Program-made: the position numbers and the translations under genes
The notes under the pieces: generated by a model
The model's input: the letters and a program-made list of their open reading frames with translations, nothing else
The model's database searches: none
What the model was told of the DNA's origin: nothing
Assembly: GCF_026151205.1 (NCBI RefSeq)
Contig: NC_087076.1
Location: 3,185,902 to 3,249,901 of the forward strand
Source: Bolinopsis microptera
Lineage: Eukaryota; Ctenophora; Tentaculata; Lobata; Bolinopsidae
Length of the DNA stretch: 64,000 nt
Direction: 5' to 3'
Part shown: in pieces, positions 26,716 through 63,197 of the stretch
Position numbering within the stretch: the first letter of the stretch is position 1
Layout of the letters: each line of letters opens with the position of its first letter

Positions 26716-26800
26716 AAACCCTAATCCTAACCCTAACCATAACCCCAAAGCTATCCATAACCCTTACCACAACCCTAATCCTAATCCGAGCCATAAACAA
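26716..26800. repeat. Degenerate interstitial telomere-like tract
   Basis: About 12 imperfect units of CCCTAA type (CCTAACCCTAACCATAACCC and similar) occur in one block. This is the C-rich strand of a TTAGGG repeat, the usual animal telomere unit. Confidence 0.7.
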
Positions 26801-28780: not shown

Positions 28781-28786
28781 TTTATT
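28781..28786 (-). terminator. Candidate polyadenylation signal of receptor gene A
   Basis: AATAAA on the minus strand about 56 bp after the stop codon at 28844-28842. Confidence 0.5.
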
Positions 28787-28841: not shown

Positions 28842-31800
28842 TTACAAGGCAGTACTGTTGTTTTTATCCGCCGCAGTCGAATTATCAGAAAGCAGTTTCG
28901 TATTAACTGCATTTCGGTCTGACTCGATGTTTAGGGACGATTTAAGCCGCGTCAGGTTTGTATTCACTGAGGTAAATAGAGGTGCGTTATAGTATGTAGT
29001 ATTGAATAAAGAGCTTTATCAAGATTAAATTGTAAAGCAATGAATAATAATATGTTTAAGTGGTCTTTATTAAGGAGCACTAAGTAGATTTAAAATGATT
29101 AACCAGGAAAACAAACCTGATGAAGCGAGATTTTTCTTCTTTTTGATCAAGAACGATCTGATACTTGCCATTCTGATAGGGTATAGCCATGGGTTGAATA
29201 TTGGTCCCAGAAATGTCAGTGTACGAGAAATGACTTTATAGTGCTAAGGGGAGGACAGTGATAAATTATTTATTTGATACAAATTATATGCACATAAATC
29301 AATGGTTGTTAATGTATGAATTTTGTAAATTTGGATAATGAAATTTTACCAAAACCCATAATCATGGGTAGAGTGGACCGCTGCCAGTGTCTCTCTTTCC
29401 CAAACAAAAGGAAATGATATTAATTTGATTGACCGTTCTCAAATGCAAAATGATACCGAGAATGAAATCGGTCGCTCGCTTTTCCCATTCATTCACGGCT
29501 TACGAATTGTATAAATAAGTTTCGATTGATTACATCAATCAGATGCTGTAAAAATCTCTTTGGGTTGCGTTCGGGTCGATACCTAGTATTTCGGGGTAAG
29601 GGACAAGGGTGGTAGTTATTACTTATTGAACAAGCTGGAGTTTATTGAATCTTCATTGCCGAGTACAGCTGCCTTTGGGTAGTTCTTCTTAATCTATTAC
29701 AATTGTAAATGAATGGGAAAAGCGAGCGACCGATTTCATTCTCGGTATCATTTTGCATTTGAGAACGGTCAATCAAATTAATATCATTTCCTTTTGTTTG
29801 GGAAAGAGAGACACTGGCAGCGGTCCACTCTACCCATGATTATGGGTTTTGGTAAAATATCATCTCTTTTTGATTATAATGTCAGGGTACTTTATAAAGT
29901 CGAAATATAAACTGATATCTTCATTAATAAGGAGGCAGTTTCAACGATTTCGAAATTTTTCCTTTAAAAACATATCCTTGTGTTTAGGGAAGCATATCGG
30001 TCGATCACTGACTGAATATTCCACTTAATACTTATTCAAGTTGGCATTAAATTCATATATAATGACATTAAACTGTCGTGGCAAAGCAGAATTTGTTGGA
30101 AATCACGAATGAGCAAAATTCTCACCTTTCGCACGTGCAAACTTTGAGCGGACGTTGCGTGCGCATCCAATATTGAATCGCCGTAAATTTGTGCATGTAA
30201 TTGTTTTATATATAGCTTGATAAGCATGCAAAGTTTCAAAGTATTTCAAGAAGAACTGTAATCACAACGGCACTCTAAAGTTGACAGAAAATGACGAAAA
30301 CAGCAATTTTCAGTGATTTTAGCAATTTTCTATCAATTTGGGCGTGTCCCCACGTGTGCAACTTTTCGATTTTAAACTTTAAAACTAGCCTAATGCACAA
30401 TTTATACCTATAAGAAGCAGAAATGAGCTCCACAACCCAAGGCATGGCCCAACACCAGAGAATACTAAATCGCAAAATTGACGTTTTTATAAAATAATTC
30501 TTCAAAAAAGCACAAACTTCAATAACGAATATCTTTATGAAGGAGCAAGCTAGAAAAACTTTCCGGTAGATTTTCAGAATGCTTGAACAATTATCTAAGA
30601 TAAAATTTTCCTCAGATTTTGAATAAAATTACATCTTAATGGTTTAAAATTAATTTTAAAAGTTATTACTTTGTCAAAAATCAAGTTTTAAAAACGGTTA
30701 ACTTGATGACGTCATCAAGGGGTGTTTATGACGTCAAATAATTTTTTTATACAATGTAAACTAAAGTGTAAACAATTATTTGCAAGACCTGTGGTCGGAA
30801 ATGGCTGTATCTTTTATAGGTACAAATCTACAGACACCTGAATGTAGCCTATAATTGACTGGCAAAGCGTCTATCCCTGAATATATGTATGTATGTATGT
30901 ATCACGACAATCTGTCGTAAAACAGGGGTTCTAGAAAACCCATTCCCCGATGCTCCTGAAACTTGAAACTTTTTTTGCAATCGATTTGGTCAACGTCTAG
31001 ACGTCCTAAAAAATTTCAGATCTCTAACTCAATTTTAACATGGTTTTTAAGGCACCTGAATATGGCGATTTTGGGTTTTTTACCGAATTTCGTATAACAG
31101 TGCTGGCGAGTATTTTATGCAAATTTCTTAAAAATCTCAACGTAACTATTTTTTATTCCTGTCATCTTTGACATCAAATTAGAATGTTTTGAACTAAAAA
31201 TAAATCTGTCGAACGACTTCCGATGAGTCTTAATGCCTGAAAAACTCCTGCCGGAGGAGGCGGCCTTCGGCCGCCGCCTCCGGCCGGAGTGCACGCTTCG
31301 CGTGCACGAAAGAGGCTTGTAACGTGTACCAAAGGGGGTATAATAGTAAAGGGGGTATAATAGTAAAGGGGGTACATAGTATACCCACAATAAATGCACC
31401 GGTCGTGCTTGCCAGCACTGTGATTGATCATGAAATTGTCGTTTTATCATGGTATCACCTGCCTCAGAATCAAAAGTAAATTAATCGAATTTTTAAAAAC
31501 TTGACAATCTCAAGGCAAACTGCATTAATCTTCTCCCAATTCCTCGGTATACTTTTTTTAAAATAAGATAAAGAACTTACGCTAGTGTAAATTTTGGTTC
31601 CTCGGACTCTGTCATCAATCGAGTACCAGTGGTAGGGCATTTGTGAAACTAATATCAAAACAGCTTGAAAGAAAGACACTGTACAGGTGAGTCTGATACT
31701 CCTAGCTACCCTGAGATATTTTGAAAGTTACAGAGAGCTCGAACAAAGTCTGCTTTATGAGAAGTTGAGTATTTTATAGTTTATATGAGAAGTTCAGTAA

Positions 31801-33396
31801 TTTATATGAGAAGTTGAGTATTCTATATGAGAAGTTGAATAATTTATATGAGAAGTCGAGTATTCTATATGAGTAGTTTACTTACTCATCCTGTCTCTTT
31901 GTATTGTCTTTTTGCATTCTAGCGCTTTTGTTAAGCTTGACGATGATGATGACGCAAGTGACTGACAGAGCAGTGATTGCCAGAATAGTGAGAAGGGGGT
32001 ATGCCACGTTCATCCACATCTGATACGCGGCATGTCCTTCCGGCCACGTGTCTTCGTTCACATGTAGAACACAACCTGATAATCACATTTCTTATAGGAT
32101 AATTCACATGTAGAACACAACCTGATAATCACATTTCTTATAAGAATTCCATCACTCAGAATAGCATTCGTTAAAATAATGAGCACAGAAAGGAAACTAA
32201 ATAATTATCATGTTAGTTAAGTTTTCACCCACCCATGAATAAGTCCCGATCTGAGATTAACTGCATTCCGTTATCATCAAACTCGTTAGCCACATCACAC
32301 ATAAAGGCAGCTGCACCAGTTCCATTTCTACTCGTATAATAGCTCATTGCAGAGACAGCACCGATTGTGTAGGGCAGGATCATGGTAAAGAATGGAATGG
32401 CAGTGCAAGTTGCTAGAATAATCACCATCTTAAAGACAGTGATGTTGTAGGTGTAGCGGAGAGGTCTACAAATGTGTCCAGCTCGGTCCATACAGATAGC
32501 CACAACCAACATTAGTTGGAGCCACGTTGAGTATTCCAGTATAGGATTTGCAGCAGCCCTGTAGTAAAATTGTAATGAAACTTATTTATTAAAACTTATT
32601 TCGAATGGGCTGTCGAAAAATTCTTGTATATTATAATTTTATGCTATGGTCATAATGGCATTTCATTTAAGAATCACGAAATGAGACAGAAGACAAACGG
32701 CAATTGGAAAAGGAATAAGATTAGGAGACACTTACTTATTGTACATGCCGTTTCCGTAAGATGCATCATTAGTAGTAAAAGAAAGCGCAGCCGGTATTGC
32801 TACGAAGACTATTTGGAGCACATCCACAAAGGAGAGATACACACAAAACACATTAGACTGGAAAAACGGATGCTGCAGGAGTGGCTGAGGAAGTGGATGG
32901 TGAGGAATAGCAGAAGATTTCTTTGGTTCATAACTTTTTAAATAGTAAAAATTTACCTTTAAGATTTACGTAAAATCCGGATTGGAGTATTATTTATTTT
33001 TTACTTGTCGCAACAACCGGGATAAAGATAATTTTACACAGAATACATTTAAGATTTACCATAGAAAAATACTTACCATAGAAAAAGATTTGAAATGAAA
33101 TGATCGATAAAATATACCTTCAGATTCTTGATGACGGCGTAAAAGCAAGCCACGTTGCCAACAATGGTAATAACGATGATGACCCAGAGAATAGCTCCGA
33201 GGATCTTCAACTCATCAACAGTCCAACTGCTCGAGAAGGAAAGTTTTGTTGAGAAGATTGGTTCTGTCGTTGAATTGAATACGGAGGTGGTTAAATGAGA
33301 GAGGTGGGTAAGAGCATCACTGGTTTGGTTGATGGGAACTCTACCGGAGTGCTGTGTGACTACGGGACTGAACGCTGTAACTGATACCGCCGACAT
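28842..33396 (-). CDS. Rhodopsin-like GPCR gene A, 7 exons
   Basis: Coding exons are 33396-33118, 32884-32736, 32558-32233, 32075-31886, 31710-31581, 29243-29117 and 28966-28842. All junctions keep phase, giving 441 residues. Exon 1 has an extracellular Ser/Thr-rich tail with NQT and NST glycosylation sites, then TM1 with VGNVACFYAVI. Exon 2 holds TM2 and exon 3 TM3-TM4 with CMDRAGHICRPL in place of the DRY motif. Exon 4 holds TM5, exon 5 TM6, and exon 6 TM7 with FNPWLYPIRMAS. The tail (VNTNLTRLKSSLN) is in a short last exon. No Cys is seen at the usual start of TM3; two Cys flank extracellular loop 2. Ligand unknown. It is a tandem paralog of gene B. A minus-strand AATAAA (28786-28781) lies 56 bp past the stop. 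Confidence 0.83.
29338..29861. mobile_element. Foldback element with arms of about 160 bp
   Basis: 29338-29497 is an inverted copy of 29703-29861. Outer ends read TTTTACCAAAACCCATAATC and its complement, with a spacer of about 205 bp. Both arms contain CTCTCTTTCCCAAACAAAAG. A similar arm end occurs at about 17954-18010. No coding frame is present. It lies in intron 5 of receptor gene A. Confidence 0.8.
30895..31235 (+). repeat. Interspersed repeat family R2, copy 2
   Basis: Collinear with 16710-16975 at roughly three quarters identity by eye. A GTAT microsatellite precedes it and a GC-rich double hairpin follows it. It lies in intron 5 of receptor gene A. Confidence 0.65.
31251..31307. repeat. 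Double-hairpin element in receptor gene A intron 5
   Basis: The first stem is 31251-31265 paired with 31269-31283 around TTC with one mismatch. The second is GTGCACGC/GCGTGCAC around TTC at 31289-31307, the same stem as at 27065-27085. Sequence AACGTGTACCAAAGGGGG follows, like the flank at 27.4 kb. Confidence 0.85.
31758..31878. repeat. Short tandem repeat (TATATGAGAAGTTGAGTAT type)
   Basis: About six units of 19-20 bp lie in intron 4 of receptor gene A. Confidence 0.8.
32059..32151. repeat. Tandem duplication across the exon 4 acceptor of receptor gene A
   Basis: A block of about 46 bp containing CACATGTAGAACACAACCTG occurs twice in a row. The duplicated block includes the 3' splice site and the first exon bases, leaving a decoy acceptor upstream. 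Confidence 0.85.
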
Positions 33397-34441
33397 TTCA
33401 GATCAGATTCGGAGATGAGCTCTCTAAACCATAGCTTGAGCTTTGATAATAAAGTTAGCAACAAACATAATATAGAAAGCACAGCAACTTAATTCTAATG
33501 TATAAATATAATAATAAAGTAATCTGTAAAAAGTTAACTTTTGATAACCGAGAAAAATTAAACAGTTAAAAACAAATTTTGTGGGACATTTTTCGTCAAT
33601 TTACAATGATATTTACAATATTATACAAGATCACAGCATTTCAGGAAACATTAACTGCGATACGTGACGAGTGTTAACGCCAAAAGAAACATTAAAATAA
33701 AATCATCGAAAATTTCAAGAAAATAACATCAGGCCAATAAATATGACAAGTAATGAGCTCTTAAGTCACTGTAAAAGTTAATCAAATGATCTTCTGCACA
33801 TCACACCGCAACGTAAGAGCACATTACATGGTGTCAAACTCCAAACAGAGTGTAGGAGAAAAAAGCTTTATAGAACGTAAAGCATATCATACAAGGTAAC
33901 ACTTAACGTAGTTATATCCGGTATGTAGTTCTGTAACCTTGTTTACTTTCATCATTGCAGACAAATACGATTGCTCAGTGCTGCTGAGTTTCAGTAAAAT
34001 ACCCTAACACAGTAGACCCTCTCCAATGTTTGGAACTAACTCAATTTCATAAAACTGTCGATGCACCAAATTAGCAGTCTACACGACGAATAAACAACAT
34101 TGGAAATGAATTACTGAAATTTATAACTGATCAGTATCGCCTTAGAAATATCGCTCAACATGGATAAAGAACGGCATGCTAGTCAAGTGGTATGAACTGA
34201 AAGTTTTTGGGGTGAATCTAACGGAAAGTGTGCGAATTATTCAAGTTAGCAAAAGGGGTCTACCGTTAAGTTCAAGTAAAATAATTGAATCATTTCCTTA
34301 GTCGTACTAACACATAATTAAAATTTTCATCAGTTATTAAAAGAATTAAAATAGGAAATAGTAAAAACCTTGCTCCACCAAACCCGGCCGGAGCACCACA
34401 GTGTCTCTATCACAAAACCTTTCTCTCTCACCTCATTTCCC
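33397..34441. other. Between receptor genes A and B
   Basis: About 1 kb upstream of the receptor A start and downstream of the distal B terminal exon. It probably holds the A promoter. No specific element is seen. Confidence 0.6.
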
Positions 34442-34578
34442 TCAGGCTTCAGTAAGCGCGGTGAGAGCCAGAGGGTCGGTGATGGCAGTGGAGTTGTTGG
34501 CAAAGAGTTGGGTGTGCTGTGCTGTACTCTCTCCGGAGGGAGTCAGGGAGGACTTGAGTCTTAGCAGGGAGGTGTTCA
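34442..34578 (-). CDS. Distal copy of receptor B terminal exon, native stop
   Basis: Sequence matches the proximal copy base for base as far as I can compare through ALTALTEA, then stops at TGA 34444-34442, just at the duplication edge. It encodes 45 residues plus stop. This is probably the original exon, since its stop fits the length of gene A's tail. Confidence 0.6.
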
Positions 34579-37500
34579 CTGCAATAGTACAACTTAGGTC
34601 AACTGTAACTTACAACTCTCACAAGTTATAAGTTTATAACACACCACACAAGTCACAAGATAGGAAATAGGATTCATACAAGATAAACAACAAGATAAAC
34701 AACAAGATAAACAACATGATAAACAACAAGATAAACAACAAGATAAACAACAAGATAAACAACAAGATAAACAACAAGATAAACAACAAGATAAACAACA
34801 AGATAAACAACAAGATAAACAACAAGATAAACAACAAGATAAACAACAAGATAAACAACAAGATAAACAACAAGATAAACAACAAGATAAACAACAAGAT
34901 AAACAACAAGATAAACAACAAGATAAACAACAAGATAAACAACAAGATAAACAACAAGATAAACAACAAGATAAACAACAAGATAAACAACAAGATAAAC
35001 AACAAGATAAACAACAAGATAAACAACAAGATAAACAACAAGATAAACAACAAGATAAACAACAAGATAAACAACAAGATAAACAACAAGATAAACAACA
35101 AGATAAACAACAAGATAAACAACAAGATAAACAACAAGATAAACAACAAGATAAACAACAAGATAAACAACAAGATAAACAACAAGATAAACAACAAGAT
35201 AAACAACAAGATAAACAACAAGATAAACAACAAGATAAACAACAAGATAAACAACAAGATAAACAACAAGGTAAACAACAAGATAAACAACAAGATAAAC
35301 AACAAGGTAACAACCAAATTCTATTGGCTACACAGATTTTGGCTACACAGATTTTGATTTTTAGACCGCCTATTCATTTTCAATCCCCGACATAAATCTC
35401 CCAAAATGTGGCTGACACGCAAAATGACACAGAATGATGTTTTAAAAGTGACAGATTTCTGTGGGCAGCCATGCATCTTCTTACCGAGACACAACAGGAC
35501 CGCTGCATTGTAGCTGAGATAATTGTTGCTGAGATAATTTTATTTCAATATTTCAATATGACTCAAACTAGAGAACAAGGTCCATTAAGATGGAAGAGCT
35601 CGAATAGCATCCTAATTGTAGATGCGTCGTAAAACTGAAAGTTAAAGGCTTCTTCAATAGTTCAGCACTCAAGTAACCATGGAGGTGCCTAGAGAAATAT
35701 CTGATGACCTGGTCGATAACACAGACTTAATGAGTGTGGTACTGTGGCACTGTGGCACTGTGGCACTGTGGCACTGTGTTACTGTGGCTGATGTACGATG
35801 CACAAGGGTTCAGTGAGACAGCTGAAGTCACACGGAGCTATTAGCTAGATTTAATCAAGATCAACGTAAAATTAGGGAAAAGAACAATCGCAGAAAAAGT
35901 TTCAACCGAGTGTAGAAACTAGAAGCCTCATGGGGCTCTAGCAGCTAAGTGTACCACATAACACTAGATATCAGCTCAAGTGGGTTCAACTAATCTACAA
36001 TGCTAAATCACGAACACTCGTGGCGAAGCTTCAACACCTAAAAATAGTGTCATTGTGCTAATGGCCAGTAGAGGCAGGAGTCCCGGCTCTACTGGCTCTA
36101 CACTTTACCTCAAGAGCTCAATACGGTACTAAGGAATAGTAAATTCAACGAATAGAAAATATTTCATGAACGTCGTGTGAAATTAAGACATGTTATGAAA
36201 ATTTGATGGTTACAATTACATTTGTGGTGCTTCTGCAAACAGGCTTCAGTAAGCGCGGTGAGAGCCAGAGGGTCGGTGATGGCAGTGGAGTTGTTGGCAA
36301 AGAGTTGGGTGTGCTGTGCTGTACTCTCTCCGGAGGGAGTCAGGGAGGACTTGAGTCTTAGCAGGGAGGTGTTCACTGCAATAGTACAACTTAGGTCAAC
36401 TGTAACTTACAACTCTCACAAGTTATAAGTTTATAACACACCACACAAGTCACAAGATAGGAAATAGGATTCATACAAGATAAACAACAAGATAAACAAC
36501 AAGATAAACAACAAGATAAACAACAAGATAAACAACAAGATAAACAACAAGATAAACAACAAGATAAACAACAAGATAAACAACAAGATAAACAACAAGA
36601 TAAACAACAAGATAAACAACAAGATAAACAACAAGATAAACAACAAGATAAACAACAAGATAAACAACAAGATAAACAACAAGATAAACAACAAGATAAA
36701 CAACAAGATAAACAACAAGATAAACAACAAGATAAACAACAAGATAAACAACAAGATAAACAACAAGATAAACAACAAGATAAACAACAAGATAAACAAC
36801 AAGATAAACAACAAGATAAACAACAAGATAAACAACAAGATAAACAACAAGATAAACAACAAGATAAACAACAAGATAAACAACAAGATAAACAACAAGA
36901 TAAACAACAAGATAAACAACAAGATAAACAACAAGATAAACAACAAGATAAACAACAAGATAAACAACAAGATAAACAACAAGATAAACAACAAGATAAA
37001 CAACAAGATAAACAACAAGATAAACAACAAGATAAACAACAAGATAAACAACAAGATAAACAACAAGATAAACAACAAGATAAACAACAAGATAAACAAC
37101 AAGATAAACAACAAGATAAACAACAAGGTAAACAACAAGATAAACAACAAGATAAACAACAAGATAAACAACCAAATTCTATTGGCTACACAGATTTTGG
37201 CTACACAGATTTTGATTTTTAGACCGCCTATTCATTTTCAATCCCCGACATAAATCTCCCAAAATGTGGCTGACACGCAAAATGACACAAAATGATGTTT
37301 TAAAAGTGACAGATTTCTGTGGGCAGCCATGCATCTTCTTACCGAGACACAACAGGACCGCTGCATTGTAGCTGAGATAATTGTTGCTGAGATAATTTTA
37401 TTTCAATATTTCAATATGACTCAAACTAAAGAACAAGGTACAAGGTTCTTCTAGTCTCGGTACACCCACATTTGATATGTATCAGTTATCAAAACATTCT

Positions 37501-40500
37501 GTAAGCGAGCTAACAAACAATACGCAGACGACAAATCATCACCATGATGTTGCGACGTATGAGTATGGGTTGACGTATGAGTATGAACAGTGTAGGGTTA
37601 CTTTCACTTCCATGATACTGATAACAACAATATCTTTGTGCTGGAAGTTGAACTGAACTAGATAACTAGACCTCTAGGTTTAGGTGCTCATATCAATCAA
37701 AGTAACCTAGGAATGTAGTTGAAAAAGCCGTGGATTCCATCTGCTAACAGACTACATTGATTTGCACTTCCAGCCAAGAAAACGAGTGCAGAAAACAGAC
37801 TGAAGAAGAAACAGACCGAAGAAATTTGACGTAAAAGCTCCTGACGAATATGCGAGAGACACGAAATTATTAAAATGGAAGAGCTCGAATAGCATCCTAA
37901 TTGTAGATGCGTCGTAAAACTGAAAGTTAAAGGCTTCTTCAATAGTTCAGCGCTCAAGTAACCATGGAGGTGCCTAGAGAAATATCTGATGACCTGGTCG
38001 ATAACACAGACTTAATGAGTGTGGCACTGTGGCACTGTGGCACTGTGGCAATTTGGCTGATGTACGATGCACAAGGGTTCAGTGAGACAGCTGAAGTCAC
38101 ACGGAGCTATTAGCTAGATTTAATCAAGATCAACGTAAAATTAGGGAAAAGAACAATCGCAGAAAAATATTCAACCGAGTGTAGAAACAAGAAGCCTCAT
38201 GGGGCTCTAGCAGCTAAGTGTACCACATAACACTAGATATCAGCTCAAGTGGGTTCAACTAATCTACAATGCTAAATCACGAACACTCGTGGCGAAGCTT
38301 CAACACCTAAAAATAGTGTCATTGTGCTAATGGCCAGTAGAGGCAGGAGTCCCGGCTCTACTGGCTCTACACTTTACCTCAAGAGCTCAATACGGTACTA
38401 AGGAATAGTAAATTCAACGAATAGAAAATATTTCATGAACGTCGTGTGAAATTAAGACATGTTATGAAAATTGGATGGTTACAATTACATTTGTGGTGAT
38501 TCTGCAAACTTGTGAAACCGGAGACTGGTCAGTACACGTTCTGCAGCTGTGAAATATTTCATGACTTATACCGTCTACCAGTGAGACAGAATAATCAATC
38601 AAAAATATTAAGCAGCTGGTATGAAATGAATCCCATGCAACCCGCCCACACCCACTACAGCGAACAGCAAATAGCAAACAGCCATGCATTAGGAACACGT
38701 TAGAGGGCGCCCCATATAATGTAACTATAATATGTTAACGGAAAATAAGAATTAGATACTATTATTGCTTCAAACACAAGGCACGCAAAATATTGAGATG
38801 TGTCCAAAATGTAACGGAAATGACTATATTTTTGAAGGAAGCGGCTGGATAAAGACCAGAAATATGTTATAAAAATACACTAAACACAGATATTTCACGG
38901 TATCACGTTTTACGACAATCATGCGCTAGTTGGCTTGTTAGCAACACCACACATACCGTTACTATTCATTTAGGATTTGTTATTTGATCTGGTCAAAGTA
39001 GATTGGGTATGTTTGAGCCTGGAGGTTAACCTTCTGGCTTTGAATTTGATCACCGACGCTGAAAATGGGAGTTCAAATGTCTTCACATGGTCCTCTGAAG
39101 ACCTTATCTTTATCATTTGTGGGTTATCGAAAAATGTAGAGGAACTGCACGAAAAACAAAGCAGCTTCGTTCGTTTGACTTCGTCTTGGAGAAGGTTAGT
39201 GGAAATCTTATACGAGAAGAAGGTTTTAACTTGAAAGCTCTTCTAGTTGGAGGTATTCTCAACTCATAGTGCACTCATGTTTAACAGTTGACTGGTCACA
39301 GAGGCATTGGATTAGAAACATATGTTCAAATGTTTTTTAAACGCCGTATTTTATAACATGTAAATACTAGCCCATAATTTTAACCCTCAAGGAAAAGTAA
39401 AACGAAATATTCAGCGTGGAGAGATGTTTGATATTTTCTCGCGTTATCCGTTTCTTTTTCTGTCAACACCACCCGACATTTTAATACTCTCTAATAATCA
39501 GATATTAATTACAGTTTACACTGTATTTAATACCATCATAAAACTAAATATTCTGAATATCAGGGATACTTCTTTCATTGAGGAGGGGAAATGTTAGTCT
39601 CCGACTCAATGCTTGATTGACATATTTTGCCGAGGTCAGATCCGTTTGTATTTTTGATCAAATTTATTCATTTTATACGTGTGCTTCATTTTTACTCGAA
39701 TGATGATCTAATAAGTTAACATATGACTTTTTTTTGACGCTTAAAAAATTCTTCCAATTTTGATGAACAAAGCAATCTGATAAGGTGCTATTAGTATTTT
39801 TCTCACCTGACGAGGCAAGAGACTTCTGTTTCGTCACTAGGAATGATCTGATGCTAGCCATTCTGATTGGATACATCCAGGGGTTCAGCATGGGTCCCAG
39901 GAAGACAAGCACCCGGGCTATCACCTTGTAGTGCTGAAATTTAGTGCAAATTAGAAACGTTTATCTCATTTCGATAACATCGTGAAAAAGCTATCACCTG
40001 CATTTTGTTGCAAATTAGAAACATTTCAATAACTTATAATCTGTTTTACAGCGTGAAATATAAAAACAGCCCTGAAGAATGTTTGTCTCATAACTCACAC
40101 TTGAATAGACTCTGTAACAGTTCTTAGTGTTACAAGTAGCGTGAAGTCTGTCGTCAATCTGATACCAGCGAAGAGGCAGAGTAGACACTAAGATGACAAC
40201 TGCTTGTATGAAGGAGACTGTGCAGGTCATCCTTACACTTCTAGCTACCCTGTTGATATTCATATTCATAAACAATAAAGAAATGATCGAAAAGGTTATT
40301 GTCAAATCGAAACAAGAAAGTAGCCGACCGTGCAATTCCAATTGATGCATTCACAAATTGTAAGTAAGTGAAGGAAATTCCAACAATTGTCAATTAATCA
40401 ATAAAGTCAAGTTTTGAAAGAATGCAAAATTGTGAAAAAATGAGTTTTGTTAAATGATAATATGTAATAGCAAATTCTAAAAATTGTTTTTTTCACAAAT

Positions 40501-41988
40501 CTGTCTAACTTACAAGTTTTGTTTAGCGGGGTTGTTTTTGTGGAGCTTGTAGCTCTCGCCAAGTTTCCAAATAATGATAGCACTGGTGCCACCGAGAGCT
40601 GCCACTGCCAGGAACATTAAAAGAGGACTAGCCACATTCTCCCACATCATGAAGCTCTTGGATCCCGGCCAAGATGTGTCGTTTGATTGCAAAACACAAC
40701 CTGCAGAAGTATATGCTGTTATATATGACTCAAAACCAATTAAATAGAAGTATCCGTCTTCTAAAGTGTTAATTTGTATTTTCAAAAGAGGAAAAAAACT
40801 GGAGAGGACTGAAATTAAAATACAGAGAAAATAAGAATACGGATAAAATTAGAGTACTGATAAACTGAAATTAGAATGCACATGACTCACTCATAAAGAT
40901 TTTCACGATAACGTCGGTCCCATTGGTATGGGTTTTTCCAGAGCGCGCCACATCGCACACGAAAGCAATATCTGGCTCAGCACCCATACTCTTGTACCAA
41001 CTCATAACGGATCTGGAGGCGATTATATGAGGAAGGGTTAGCGTTAAAAAAGGAATGGCGGTGCACACTATGAGCGCTATCACTGTCTTGTAGGCCTTGA
41101 TAGTGTAGGTGTAGGATAGGGGTCTCCAGATGTGGCCAGCTCGGTCCACACAGATAGCAACAACCAGGAGCAGCTGGAGCCAAACCACAAAGTCCAGGAT
41201 GGGATCTGCGGCTGCTCTGCGATAAAGGGTTTTTTTTGGAAGGTGGCTCTTTTTTTAAATTTTTAAATTTACAAGATCACTTTCACTCCAGAGACTCGGA
41301 GCAACAATTCAATTCTTAAGATGCTCGAGCTTATTTGACAAGTTCTTATTTGACAAGTTCTAATTACTAATTACTAATTGCTAATTACTAATTACTTATT
41401 GTAGAGACTGTCTCGGAGTCCGGGACTATCTGTAGTGTAGCTAATTGCAGCAGGCACACCCACCAAAACTACTTGGAATATGTCTACAAAAGAGAGGTAC
41501 ACACAGAATATGTTGGACTGGAAGAATGGGTGCTGCAACAGTATCTGAAATATTTCAGGTTTTATATAAAAAGTAAATCTTTAGTTGTTAACTAACATCA
41601 GATAGTAATTACGGTGCACACATGTCCACGAACTGACAATGTAAAACATAATGAAAATAACCTTCATATTTCTGATAACAGCGTAGAAGCAGGCGAGGTT
41701 GCCCACCAAAGTAATGAACATGACGAGCCAGAGCACACCACCCAGTAGTGTTAGCTCGTGTACAGTCCAGCCCCCACTCTCAAAGTTAGGGGGTGGAGCC
41801 AGGGTGGTGTAGAGGAATGTGGAGGAGGTCGTCTCACCAGCTGCTCCTATACTTCCCTTAGTGGTCTGGTGTCCGTGAGATATGTGATCTGTGGAGGGGA
41901 TACCACCACCTCCGTCAGTCAGTCCTTTTGTTGTGAACATGTTTAGAGAGGATGTGTCGTTCAAACCGTGTATTGTGGACATTTGCAT
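34442..41988 (-). CDS. Rhodopsin-like GPCR gene B, 6 exons plus alternative terminal exons
   Basis: Coding exons are 41988-41662, 41544-41396, 41216-40891, 40700-40514, 40249-40099 and 39933-39807, all in phase. Exons 2, 3 and 6 have exactly the same lengths as in gene A (149, 326, 127 bp). TM1 has LVGNLACFYAVI, TM3 ends ICVDRAGHIWRPLSY, and TM7 has LNPWMYPIRMAS. Loop 2 has two Cys; the TM3 Cys is not seen. A homolog of gene A's last exon lies far downstream in two copies: 34578-34442 (467-residue product) and 36375-36164 (492 residues). If the donor at 39807 is not used, the frame instead runs to a stop at 39673 (466 residues). Ligand unknown. The last-exon assignment rests on homology and phase with A. 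Confidence 0.8.
34443..36239. repeat. Tandem duplication unit 1 (1.8 kb)
   Basis: It starts with the terminal exon of receptor B, followed by the 12-bp minisatellite and a block containing TTCTATTGGCTACACAGATT. It ends TTCTGCAAAC next to unit 2. Flank-to-flank identity with 36240-38508 is very high, so the duplication is recent. Confidence 0.9.
34678..35309. repeat. 12-bp minisatellite (ACAAGATAAACA), about 52 copies
   Basis: Nearly perfect 12-bp units with rare variants (CATGATAAAC, AAGGTAAAC). Because 12 is a multiple of 3 and several frames of the unit lack stops, long open frames run on both strands. They are not genes. Confidence 0.97.
36164..36375 (-). CDS. Proximal copy of receptor B terminal exon, read-through tail
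   Basis: The acceptor CTATTGCAG precedes TGAACACC, giving VNTSLLRLKSSL after the phase-1 donor of exon 6, as in gene A (VNTNLTRLKSSL). The copy ends at the duplication junction before its native stop, so the frame runs 25 residues further (CLQKHHKCNCNHQ...) to a stop at 36164. Confidence 0.6.
36240..38508. repeat. Tandem duplication unit 2 (2.3 kb)
   Basis: Collinear with unit 1. It differs by more minisatellite units, a segment of about 430 bp at 37440-37870 absent from unit 1, fewer GTGGCACT units near 38025, and scattered single-base changes. Confidence 0.9.
36475..37172. repeat. 12-bp minisatellite, second array, about 58 copies
   Basis: Same unit as the first array, in duplication unit 2, with a different copy number. 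Confidence 0.97.
38509..39806. other. Last intron of receptor gene B, unduplicated part
   Basis: No tandem repeat. A plus-strand frame at 38977-39234 has no recognisable domain. If the exon 6 donor is skipped, 39806-39673 is coding. Confidence 0.55.
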
Positions 41989-42828: not shown

Positions 42829-43130
42829 AACAACACTGTAACAACACTGTAACAACACTGTAACAACATTGTAACAACACTGTAACAACACTGTAACAAC
42901 ATTGCAACAACACTGTAACAACATTGTAACAACACTGTAACAACACTGTAACAACACTGTAACAACACTGTAACAACACTGTAACAACACTGTAACAACA
43001 CTGTAACAACACTGTAACAACACTGTAACAACACTGTAACAACACTGTAACAACACTGTAACAACACTGTAACAACACTGTAACAACACTGTAACAACAC
43101 TGTAACAACACTGTAACAACACTGTAACAA
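42829..43130. repeat. 11-bp minisatellite (AACAACACTGT), about 27 copies
   Basis: Tandem array about 0.8 kb upstream of the receptor B start codon. The open frames with an 11-residue period on the minus strand come from the repeat. Confidence 0.96.
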
Positions 43131-48223: not shown

Positions 48224-51200
48224 CAATGTTAGGTTGCAGCTAGAGTAAACAGAATGTTAGGTTGCAGCTAGAGTAAACAGGATGTTAGGTTGCAGCTAGA
48301 GTAAACAGAATGTTAGGTTGCAGCTAGAGTAAACAGAATGTTAGGTTGCAGCTAGAGTAAACAGAATGTTAGGTTGCAGCTAGAGTAAACAGAATGTTAG
48401 GTTGCAGCTAGAGTAAACAGAATGTTAGGTTGCAGCTAGAGTAAACAGAATGTTAGGTTGCAGCTAGAGTAAACAGAATGTTAGGTTGCAGCTAGAGTAA
48501 ACACAATGTTAGGTTGCAGCTAGAGTAAACAGAATGTTAGGTTGCAGCTAGAGTAAACAGAATGTTAGGTTGCAGCTAGAGTAAACAGAATGTTAGGTTG
48601 CAGCTAGAGTAAACAGAATGTTAGGTTGCAGCTAGAGTAAACACAATGTTAGGTTGCAGCTAGAGTAAACAGAATGTTAGGTTGCAGCTAGAGTAAACAG
48701 AATGTTAGGTTGCAGCTAGAGTAAACAGAATGTTAGGTTGCAGCTAGAGTAAACAGAATGTTAGGTTGCAGCTAGAGTAAACAGGATGTTAGGTTGCAGC
48801 TAGAGTAAACAGAATGTTAGGTTGCAGCTAGAGTAAACAGAATGTTAGGTTGCAGCTAGAGTAAACAGAATGTTAGGTTGCAGCTAGAGTAAACACAATG
48901 TTAGGTTGCAGCTAGAGTAAACAGAATGTTAGGTTGCAGCTAGAGTAAACAGAATGTTAGGTTGCAGCTAGAGTAAACAGAATGTTAGGTTGCAGCTAGA
49001 GTAAACAGAATGTTAGGTTGCAGCTAGAGTAAACAGAATGTTAGGTTGCAGCTAGAGTAAACAGAATGTTAGGTTGCAGCTAGAGTAAACAGAATGTTAG
49101 GTTGCAGCTAGAGTAAACAGAATGTTAGGTTGCAGCTAGAGTAAACACAATGTTAGGTTGCAGCTAGAGTAAACACAATGTTAGGTTGCAGCTAGAGTAA
49201 ACAGAATGTTAGGTTGCAGCTAGAGTAAACAGAATGTTAGGTTGCAGCTAGAGTAAACACAATGTTAGGTTGCAGCTAGAGTAAACACAATGTTAGGTTG
49301 CAGCTAGAGTAAACAGAATGTTAGGTTGCAGCTAGAGTAAACACAATGTTAGGTTGCAGCTAGAGTAAACAGAATGTTAGGTTGCAGCTAGAGTAAACAG
49401 AATGTTAGGTTGCAGCTAGAGTAAACAGAATGTTAGGTTGCAGCTAGAGTAAACAGAATGTTAGGTTGCAGCTAGAGTAAACAGAATGTTAGGTTGCAGC
49501 TAGAGTAAACAGAATGTTAGGTTGCAGCTAGAGTAAACAGAATGTTAGGTTGCAGCTAGAGTAAACAGAATGTTAGGTTGCAGCTAGAGTAAACAGAATG
49601 TTAGGTTGCAGCTAGAGTAAACAGAATGTTAGGTTGCAGCTAGAGTAAACAGAATGTTAGGTTGCAGGTAGAGTAAACATAATGTTAGGTTGCAGCTAGA
49701 GTAAACAGAATGTTAGGTTGCAGCTAGAGTAAACAGAATGTTAGGTTGCAGCTAGAGTAAACAGAATGTTAGGTTGCAGCTAGAGTAAACAGAATGTTAG
49801 GTTGCAGCTAGAGTAAACAGAATGTTAGGTTGCAGCTAGAGTAAACAGAATGTTAGGTTGCAGCTAGAGTAAACAGAATGTTAGGTTGCAGCTAGAGTAA
49901 ACAGAATGTTAGGTTGCAGCTAGAGTAAACACGATGTTAGGTTGCAGCTAGAGTAAACAGGATGTTAGGTTGCAGCTAGAGTAAACAGAATGTTAGGTTG
50001 CAGCTAGAGTAAACAGAATGTTAGGTTGCAGCTAGAGTAAACAGAATGTTAGGTTGCAGCTAGAGTAAACAGAATGTTAGGTTGCAGCTAGAGTAAACAG
50101 AATGTTAGGTTGCAGCTAGAGTAAACAGAATGTTAGGTTGCAGCTAGAGTAAACAGAATGTTAGGTTGCAGCTAGAGTAAACAGAATGTTAGGTTGCAGC
50201 TAGAGTAAACAGAATGTTAGGTTGCAGCTAGAGTAAACAGAATGTTAGGTTGCAGCTAGAGTAAACAGAATGTTAGGTTGCAGCTAGAGTAAACAGAATG
50301 TTAGGTTGCAGCTAGAGTAAACACAATGTTAGGTTGCAGCTAGAGTAAACACAATGTTAGGTTGCAGCTAGAGTAAACAGAATGTTAGGTTGCAGCTAGA
50401 GTAAACAGAATGTTAGGTTGCAGCTAGAGTAAACAGAATGTTAGGTTGCAGCTAGAGTAAACAGAATGTTAGGTTGCAGCTAGAGTAAACAGAATGTTAG
50501 GTTGCAGCTAGAGTAAACAGAATGTTAGGTTGCAGCTAGAGTAAACAGAATGTTAGGTTGCAGCTAGAGTAAACAGAATGTTAGGTTGCAGCTAGAGTAA
50601 ACAGAATGTTAGGTTGCAGCTAGAGTAAACAGAATGTTAGGTTGCAGCTAGAGTAAACACAATGTTAGGTTGCAGCTAGAGTAAACACAATGTTAGGTTG
50701 CAGCTAGAGTAAACAGAATGTTAGGTTGCAGCTAGAGTAAACAGAATGTTAGGTTGCAGCTAGAGTAAACAGAATGTTAGGTTGCAGCTAGAGTAAACAG
50801 AATGTTAGGTTGCAGCTAGAGTAAACAGAATGTTAGGTTGCAGCTAGAGTAAACAGAATGTTAGGTTGCAGCTAGAGTAAACAGAATGTTAGGTTGCAGC
50901 TAGAGTAAACAGAATGTTAGGTTGCAGCTAGAGTAAACACAATGTTAGGTTGCAGCTAGAGTAAACACAATGTTAGGTTGCAATTAGAGTAAACAGAATG
51001 TTAGGTTGCAGCTAGAGTAAACAGAATGTTAGGTTGCAGCTAGAGTAAACACAATGTTAGGTTGCAGCTAGAGTAAACACAATGTTAGGTTGCAGCTAGA
51101 GTAAACAGAATGTTAGGTTGCAGCTAGAGTAAACACAATGTTAGGTTGCAGCTAGAGTAAACAGAATGTTAGGTTGCAGCTAGAGTAAACAGAATGTTAG

Positions 51201-51944
51201 GTTGCAGCTAGAGTAAACAGAATGTTAGGTTGCAGCTAGAGTAAACAGAATGTTAGGTTGCAGCTAGAGTAAACAGAATGTTAGGTTGCAGCTAGAGTAA
51301 ACAGAATGTTAGGTTGCAGCTAGAGTAAACAGAATGTTAGGTTGCAGCTAGAGTAAACAGAATGTTAGGTTGCAGCTAGAGTAAACAGAATGTTAGGTTG
51401 CAGCTAGAGTAAACACAATGTTAGGTTGCAGCTAGAGTAAACAGAATGTTAGGTTACTAGAGTAAACAGAATGTTAGGTTGCAGCTAGAGTAAACAGAAT
51501 GTTAGGTTGCAGCTAGAGTAAACAGAATGTTAGGTTGCAGCTAGAGTAAACAGAATGTTAGGTTGCAGCTAGAGTAAACAGAATGTTAGGTTGCAGCTAG
51601 AGTAAACAGAATGTTAGGTTGCAGCTAGAGTAAACAGAATGTTAGGTTGCAGCTAGAGTAAACAGAATGTTAGGTTGCAGCTAGAGTAAACACAATGTTA
51701 GGTTGCAGCTAGAGTAAACAGAATGTTAGGTTGCAGCTAGAGTAAACAGAATTTTAGGTTGCAGCTAGAGTAAACAGAATGTTAGGTTGCAGCTAGAGTA
51801 AACAGAATGTTAGGTTGCAGCTAGAGTAAACACAATGTTAGGTTGCAGCTAGAGTAAACAGAATGTTAGGTTGCAGCTAGAGTAAACAGAATGTTAGGTT
51901 GCAGCTAGAGTAAACAGAATGTTAGGTTGCAGCTAGAGTAAACA
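48224..51944. repeat. 28-bp satellite array, about 133 copies
   Basis: Unit AATGTTAGGTTGCAGCTAGA plus GTAAACAG. Most copies are identical; the main variant has CAC for CAG before AATG. There is one shortened unit near 51455 and a few single changes (GGATG, CGATG). All frames contain stops, so it is non-coding. It is the longest array in the window. Confidence 0.98.
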
Positions 51945-62046: not shown

Positions 62047-63197
62047 ATGAACGGGACCGAGGATCTACTGCCGCCTCTCGAGGAGAGTTCAGGACACATC
62101 TTTAGCCTTACCAAGACCATTCTTATCATTTTACTGATCCTGGTCTTCATTGAGGGTAGGTCATTCATTATTTTGACAAAGTAAGTAAATATCGAAGTTC
62201 AGATTGCCCATTTTAAACTTTCGCTAGCACAACCAATCTCTTGGACACACTAATAAAAAACCATCTCTCCACAGGAATCACGGGAAATGGGTTTGTTATT
62301 CACGCGACCTTCAGAGTCCAGGTGTTTAGAGTGGACAGGAGCACTGTAGCTTTCATCAGACATCTAGCAATCACGGACCTTCTCTACATCATCCTCAACA
62401 TCCCACCCCTCGTACTCTTCATCGTCACTATGACCCCCGGACCCGGCGTCTTGGAGACCAACCTTAAACTTCAGGAGGCGGTAGACAAGGCCTGCTACGT
62501 GTTTGGTAACGCTCACGATGCCATGGTCCACTGCAATGTTATCTTTATCCTGGTGATCTCCATCAACAGGTTCCTGAGGTGCATGAAGCCACTCCAGATC
62601 TCCGTGATGACCTCCCGGCAGGAGGCGTGGTGTTTGGCCGGGTTCTGGGGAGTTGCCCTCGCTCCTTCTCTTGCTAAGATATGTCTTCAGGCTGCTACCG
62701 TTCTACCAGTCTACCATTTCGAGTCCCAGACTGCTCGATGTGAGTTCAGTTTGACCGGAAGTTGGGAAACCTACAATCTCATATCCATCTGCACTGCTTT
62801 CTCCCTTATCACACTCTGCAATCTGGGCCTCCTTATTCTCAGTCTCAACAGACAATCCAGACTTCTCACCAAACGCATGCGGAGGATGAAGCTTCAGGCT
62901 TTTCTCATCACTGGAGGAATCTCTTGCATTTTCATCATGTCATGGCTACCAGCTGTCGCGTCGAGTCTGTTGTCATGGTTACAATTGCAAACACCGATGG
63001 AGCTAAAGTACGCCACACACCTCTACATAATCAACACTTTCTCAAACCCCATCCTCTACGCTTTTGTGAATACTGGCTACTTCAAATTCCTCCAGTTCAA
63101 GATCAAGTTTATGAAGCTGAAGTTCCAGACCAAGCTGATAGGATTAATGTTGCAGTTAAAGGGCGTCACAGGTTCTGACTCCCAAGCAGACGCCTAA
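62047..63197 (+). CDS. Rhodopsin-like GPCR gene C, 2 exons
   Basis: Exon 1 is 62047-62155 and exon 2 is 62275-63197, joined in phase 1 through G|GTAGGT and CCACAG|G, giving 343 residues. The tail is short with an NGT glycosylation site. TM1 spans the junction (GITGNGFVI). TM2 has LAITDLLYI, TM3 starts with KACYVFGNAHDAM (Cys of the conserved disulfide) and ends SINRFLRCMKP, a variant of DRY. Loop 2 has TARCEFSL, the partner Cys. TM6 has IMSWLPA and TM7 has SNPILYAFVNTGYFKF, the NPxxY motif and helix 8. It is a complete class A receptor. The TM motifs fit peptide or amine-like receptors but do not fix the ligand. The exon 2 coding potential is strong; exon 1 rests on phase, the GN motif and length. 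Confidence 0.87.

Follow-up and report, generated by a model that had tools for sequence, protein, structure and literature searches.

The window analysed here, a stretch of 64,000 nucleotides from the ctenophore Bolinopsis microptera (contig NC_087076.1, positions 3,185,902 to 3,249,901), contains two related minus-strand genes, A and B, that are predicted to encode seven-transmembrane (7TM) receptors. Our subject is the 3′ end of gene B, where a tandem duplication, very probably genuine, has left two candidate last exons, the nearer of which would lengthen the C-terminal tail of the receptor. Gene A consists of seven exons between 33396 and 28842, and gene B has six exons upstream of its tail exons (41988–39807). 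Positions are those of the window, and a slash marks the border between exon and intron. The six upstream exons of gene B are:

41662–41988, minus strand: exon 1, with the start codon, the N-terminus and transmembrane segment 1 (TM1); exit in phase 0, matching gene A
41396–41544, minus strand: exon 2; exit phase as in gene A
40891–41216, minus strand: exon 3, with TM3 and a DRA motif; exit phase as in gene A
40514–40700, minus strand: exon 4; exit phase as in gene A
40099–40249, minus strand: exon 5; exit phase as in gene A
39807–39933, minus strand: exon 6, with TM7 and the motif NPWMY; phase-1 donor TCAG/GTGAGA at 39807

Exons 1 through 6 exit in phases 0, 2, 1, 2, 0 and 1 in both genes, GT-AG borders delimit all 11 introns (six in gene A and five in gene B) as well as both alternative junctions into the tail copies, and the two proteins are 54% identical. 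Class A G protein-coupled receptors (GPCRs) carry GN in TM1, D/E-R-Y at TM3 and NPxxY in TM7; in the A and B proteins GN is present, DRA replaces DRY, and NPWMY or NPWLY stands at the third position. Judged by eye, the Kyte-Doolittle peaks of each protein form six distinct helices, the TM7 stretch falling below the threshold. The protein of gene A matches Pfam PF00001 (7tm_1) with 35.1 bits, above the cut-off of 30.5; that of gene B, in both tail forms, gives no Pfam match even at E values up to 1, so that its class is assigned from gene A and from the presence of GN, DRA and NPWMY. On these grounds we read gene B as a 7TM, class A-like receptor gene. Its best relative of solved structure is NPY2R, at E values of only 0.011 and 0.045, and a profile built from A and B found no solved-structure match at 0.01. 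The literature yielded nothing specific to gene B among the matches listed.

Downstream of exon 6 in each gene lie the following tail exons:

36164–36375, minus strand: proximal candidate last exon of gene B, a 45-residue tail plus 25 residues; TGA at 36166–36164
34442–34578, minus strand: distal (ancestral) last exon of gene B, a 45-residue tail; TGA at 34444–34442; gene A and a third paralogue have homologues of it
28842–28966, minus strand: last exon of gene A, coding for a tail of 41 residues and homologous to the tail exon of gene B; AATAAA at 28786

The tail exon is real, its homology between genes A and B lying beyond chance: the local alignment scores 77, none of 2000 shuffles exceeded 48, and the next-best stretch (at least 12 amino acids, six frames, 39806–33400) scores 32. 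By plain counts of codon classes, the first 12 tail codons of A and B specify 10 identical residues, 7 of them through synonymous differences, which together with the counts for the full tail (given below) locates the conservation at the start of the tail. A search of the assembly (264.65 Mb, 232 contigs) with protein B gave 39 matches, including genes on C5 at 3.82, 3.85, 3.90 and 22.97 Mb, a copy on C7 and distant ones on C1, C2 and C6. In the 3.82-Mb gene, 0.6 Mb away, the last exon (CAG/TGAATACGTCACTC) lies 2393 nt past exon 6 in phase 1; its first eight residues (VNTSLLRL) are identical to those of gene B with six of the eight codons synonymously different. An AATAAA follows 35 nt beyond the stop of this exon, and intron 1 of the gene is apparently absent. 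A last exon placed kilobases away is thus not peculiar to gene B. Gene A and the 3.82-Mb paralogue resemble gene B in their exon plan, their phase-1 donor and a last exon with VNTxLxRL; unlike gene B, each has one last exon found, with AATAAA shortly after its stop. The donor TCAG/GT occupies the equivalent place in all six intron-bearing C5 family genes read. For the genes at 3.85, 3.90 and 22.97 Mb, queries with three spliced tails and the end of the C7 copy revealed no tail exon by similarity in the 7–8 kb downstream, among the matches listed, and the pattern VN[TS]xLxRL occurred only in the 3.82-Mb gene among five loci scanned. The paralogues at 3.85 and 3.90 Mb are ∼53 kb apart and ∼94% identical over the gene region. 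The C7 copy, at 18.06 Mb, is retrocopy-like: exons 2–6 are fused, the introns are apparently lost, and the frame changes close to the former border between exons 4 and 5.

The gene B tail exon occurs twice, once in each of two adjacent units:

36241–38509, minus strand: duplication unit 1, 2269 bp, with the proximal tail exon and an array of 12-bp repeats (58 copies)
34444–36240, minus strand: duplication unit 2, 1797 bp, without 427 bp of unit 1, with the distal tail exon and the 12-bp array (53 copies)

The original prediction held that the phase-1 donor of gene B at 39807 matches that of gene A, and that the homologous exon recurs 3.4 and 5.2 kb away, once in each unit of a recent tandem duplication. 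The sequence bears this out, as the exit phases agree and the acceptors, TTGCAG/TGAAC in both copies, are found at 36375 and 34578, 3.43 kb (proximal) and 5.23 kb (distal) from the exon 6 donor, which places the proximal one 1.8 kb nearer. The units differ at 16 of 1781 aligned columns, three of which belong to the 12-bp array, and there are also three gaps, of 16, 427 and 61 bp; outside the array, the rate is 13 mismatches in 1144 columns (∼1.1%). So few differences mark the duplication as young. At the junction, ...ACTGAAGCCT abuts GTTTGCAGAAG... with a 1-bp (G) microhomology; the distal copy continues GAGGG past this point, and the TGA of the proximal copy is cut. Because the 3′ boundary falls within the stop codon, all but the last one or two bases of the coding part of the exon were copied, and the locus shows the hallmarks of a tandem exon duplication, namely adjacent copies, a whole exon and a defined junction. 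The 427-bp segment has one matching place in the assembly (here and below, best candidates scored), so that the difference is probably a deletion in unit 2; a mobile-element insertion as its origin was rejected on the same evidence. No mismatch separates the copies over the 234-bp block of acceptor plus exon, and the chance probability of about 0.05 is too weak to argue for constraint.

The same figures raise the question of an assembly or haplotype artefact, in which two alleles of one un-duplicated segment were placed in series. Mismatches of ∼1.1% outside the array, together with the indels, would suit allelic divergence, and the mismatch-free block could reflect shared polishing. The paper describing the assembly names wtdbg, TGS-Gapcloser (gap filling by long reads), Purge Haplotigs (haplotig purging) and pilon, reports PacBio coverage over 70x, and mentions continuous long read (CLR), HiFi and Iso-Seq libraries for the species that it covers (PMC10232365); the use of wtdbg suggests that B. 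microptera was assembled from noisy CLR reads. Against an artefact stands the junction, which lies outside the 12-bp array and joins a stop codon to unrelated mid-intron sequence with a single base of microhomology, and so speaks for a true duplication. The window is also free of N, and the units are only ∼2 kb long at a coverage above 70x. Three queries (the proximal exon, the intron 6 part 38550–39800 and the flank 33450–34440) brought no un-duplicated allele to light in the assembly, and the idea that one had been left among the unplaced contigs was rejected by the same searches. The intron 6 part, the downstream flank and the 427-bp segment each have one place, which leaves neither a remaining un-duplicated allele nor a sign of a mobile element. 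We are thus confident, short of certainty, that the duplication is real, and regard the artefact as unlikely.

Translation of the two copies bears out that the distal one retains its stop and a 45-residue tail, and that the proximal one, having lost its stop at the junction, gains 25 residues rich in Cys and His before the next TGA. This extension, CLQKHHKCNCNHQIFITCLNFTRRS, contains four Cys and three His, and its codons come from the former intron. The claim that the resulting receptors have 'different C-termini' stands insofar as there are two candidate last exons; it does not stand as a description of the proximal product, which retains the complete 45-residue tail. Since no ancestral residue is lost, the predicted proximal product is better called an extended tail than a changed, different or alternative one. 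When the junction was moved to each of 2207 positions in intron 6, a stop-free stretch of 25 codons or more followed in 18.6% of cases, and at least seven Cys plus His occurred in 2.4% of 411 stop-free reads, which overlap and are not independent. The Cys/His content is mildly unusual. With a length reached by chance at that frequency and a slight excess of Cys and His, the extension is much as intron sequence would give, and we doubt strongly that it matters to the receptor.

The account that we favour, and hold with moderate confidence, is that gene B has a duplicated last exon and yields a mixture of tails. An ancestral last exon, kilobases beyond exon 6, would have encoded the 45-residue C-terminal tail with its conserved start; a recent tandem duplication of end-joining type would then have copied approximately the final 2.3 kb, including this exon, with its junction passing through the TGA. 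The distal copy would be that ancestral exon, still intact. Both terminal exons have an acceptor, a compatible phase and a stop and are candidate alternative last exons, and because its acceptor and phase are identical to those of the distal copy, the proximal copy would compete for exon 6. Splicing to it would carry translation 25 codons into the former intron, and the message could be cleaved after the ATTAAA at 35855 or the AATAAA at 35544, whereas distal splicing would give the ancestral tail; the extension would be an unselected by-product. Splice-site identity, frames, homology and duplication can be read from the DNA; the use of the acceptors, the site of cleavage and the lack of selection we infer. 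Both tail acceptors score 7.7, within the range of the 11 training acceptors from genes A and B (2.8–14.5), and the chance that the proximal one is used at a detectable level seems to us evenly balanced. Two further elements bear on the fate of the proximal exon:

35539–35544, minus strand: AATAAA, 620 nt past the proximal stop, followed by CA and GT-rich sequence
36220–36375, minus strand: the proximal exon as a possible in-frame cassette of 156 nt, with its end at the donor-like AAT/GTAATT (score 6.4)

Several observations weigh against this account. The tail acceptors rank 8–9 among the 275 AGs between 39700 and 33400, and are thus not outstanding, and four better-scoring AGs (two pairs) lie within the duplicated units. 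Of all 41 aligned A–B tail codons, 5 match exactly, 16 differ synonymously and 20 nonsynonymously, so that the tail is only loosely kept beyond codon 12. The assembly route can create or blur tandem copies, which leaves room for a false one. Finally, neither AATAAA nor ATTAAA occurs from the distal stop to 33400, so that termination there is unexplained; the next listed signal, at 32998, lies inside gene A, and the nearest of the variants tried are AATAAC at 34338, AATAAT at 34241 and TATAAA at 34125. A donor-like GAG/GTGAGA 10 nt past the distal stop scores 4.5, below the 12 training donors, and its use would mean an intron in the 3′ untranslated region. Lacking a canonical signal, the distal exon does not fit the simple picture of it as the well-equipped one.

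How the messages end also bears on whether the proximal copy is used at all. Having lost its own downstream 3′ end, it could be inert and skipped, leaving the distal exon (perhaps with read-through) as the only one used. The first ATTAAA comes 309 nt after the proximal stop and the first AATAAA 620 nt after it, distances that would favour skipping, and the sole donor-like site of the proximal exon within the training range, that at 36220, is weak. The proximal acceptor is, however, identical to the distal one and nearer to exon 6, GT-rich sequence follows the AATAAA at 35544, the 36220 donor would be in frame, and the distal copy itself has neither AATAAA nor ATTAAA down to 33400. An inert proximal copy is therefore a possibility that we take seriously while thinking it somewhat unlikely. 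The 36220 site also allows the proximal copy to be imagined as an internal cassette of 156 nt joined to the distal copy: the frame closes (...TEACLQKHHKLNTSLLRLKSSL...TEA) to give a protein of 519 residues with a doubled tail, and the donor score of 6.4 falls within the training range of 5.6–10.9. Yet AAT/GTAATT is a weak donor drawn from intron sequence, and one in three such donors would be in frame by chance, which makes the cassette very improbable.

Gene B could also end without using either tail exon, by translation through the exon 6 donor:

39673–39806, minus strand: read-through (unspliced) tail of exon 6, 44 residues; TAA at 39675–39673; AATAAA starting at 39668

The unspliced stop is where the original prediction had placed it, at 39673. 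If exon 6 read-through with cleavage at the AATAAA of 39668 were the main ending, the far exons would be minor. Three of six family genes, namely A (29072–29066, minus strand), B (39675–39663, minus strand) and the C5 gene at 22.97 Mb, have an AATAAA beside the read-through stop, in an interval reaching from 4 nt upstream to 26 nt downstream of the first base of that stop; the genes at 3.82, 3.85 and 3.90 Mb have none in this interval. Against a background of 2.5–7.5% of positions, the binomial probability is 0.0004–0.007, a post hoc figure that assumes independence. The pattern may reflect a shared intronic polyadenylation option, and the missing canonical signal of the distal exon points the same way. 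Conversely, the test was designed after seeing the data, the genes at 3.85 and 3.90 Mb are close duplicates of each other, the TCAG/GT donor is retained in six of six genes, and in three genes the beginning of the spliced tail has stayed conserved despite synonymous changes. Read-through as the main ending of gene B is in our judgment rather unlikely. It is a quite speculative extension of these observations that the C5 family has an old C-tail switch, between exon 6 read-through with AATAAA cleavage and a distant tail exon, and that duplication has just widened it in gene B, which could now form any of four tails (read-through, ancestral, extended and doubled), before selection has chosen.

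The OPRM1 exon called 3b is formed by reading through exon 3. Its tail is listed among the C-terminal variants in a paper on OPRM1, and this gene resembles gene B in that the 7TM core is constant and the tail is set by the exon joined past exon 3; the OPRM1 tails are distinct sequences known from cDNA, whereas gene B would add to one and the same tail an intron-derived extension, as deduced from its sequence (PMC8534031). The Drosophila gene pip and the 3′ variable regions of PGRP-LC are cited in another paper as tandemly duplicated, mutually exclusive terminal exons, and like gene B they have a terminal exon copied in tandem within one gene and a single contested upstream donor; the gene B copies differ in being young and nearly identical, with one stop lost, and in being known from genomic DNA alone (PMC9013439). 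Such precedents lend some plausibility to two regulated alternative last exons, the differing tails of which would alter receptor regulation through arrestin, kinase or trafficking. OPRM1 C-terminal variants differ in bias between G protein and beta-arrestin 2, according to the OPRM1 paper (PMC8534031), the pip exons are described as mutually exclusive (PMC9013439), and acceptors and frames are intact in both gene B copies. However, the proximal form retains the whole 45-residue tail, its 25 former-intron residues are of a length that chance gives in 18.6% of cases, and, because neither exon nor acceptor differs between the copies, the 234-bp block holds no visible diverged signal for differential choice. 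We consider regulated tails improbable and retain the unselected mixture as our preferred explanation. Duplicated terminal exons and C-terminal variants of GPCRs are already known, and gene B is a new, very young instance, in which the loss of a stop at the junction would append intron sequence to the tail of a receptor. With its identical copies, it would show cleanly whether, between two equal acceptors, the nearer one is preferred; should it be no more than neutral, the duplication is an ordinary structural variant, possibly polymorphic.

Other features of the window were noted in passing. Upstream of gene B lie an 11-bp array (AACAACACTGT; 42829–43130, 27.5 copies), ∼0.84 kb from the start codon, and a 28-bp satellite (48225–51944) of 133 copies at 98%. 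In gene A, a small tandem repeat at ∼32130–32050 on the minus strand duplicates the exon 4 acceptor, with TTATCAG/GTTGTGTTCTACATGTGAA occurring twice, ∼46 bp apart by eye; use of the upstream copy would shift the frame. Intron 5 of gene A contains an inverted repeat (29338–29496 and 29705–29863) with 159-bp arms at 98.7% that resembles a short inverted-repeat element. An open frame of 326 amino acids at 62217–63197 on the plus strand matches the whole 7tm_1 profile (59.4 bits) and is probably a further, single-exon receptor. A degenerate AACCCT repeat at 26717–26784 (11 copies, 66% matches) is telomere-like and chromosome-internal.

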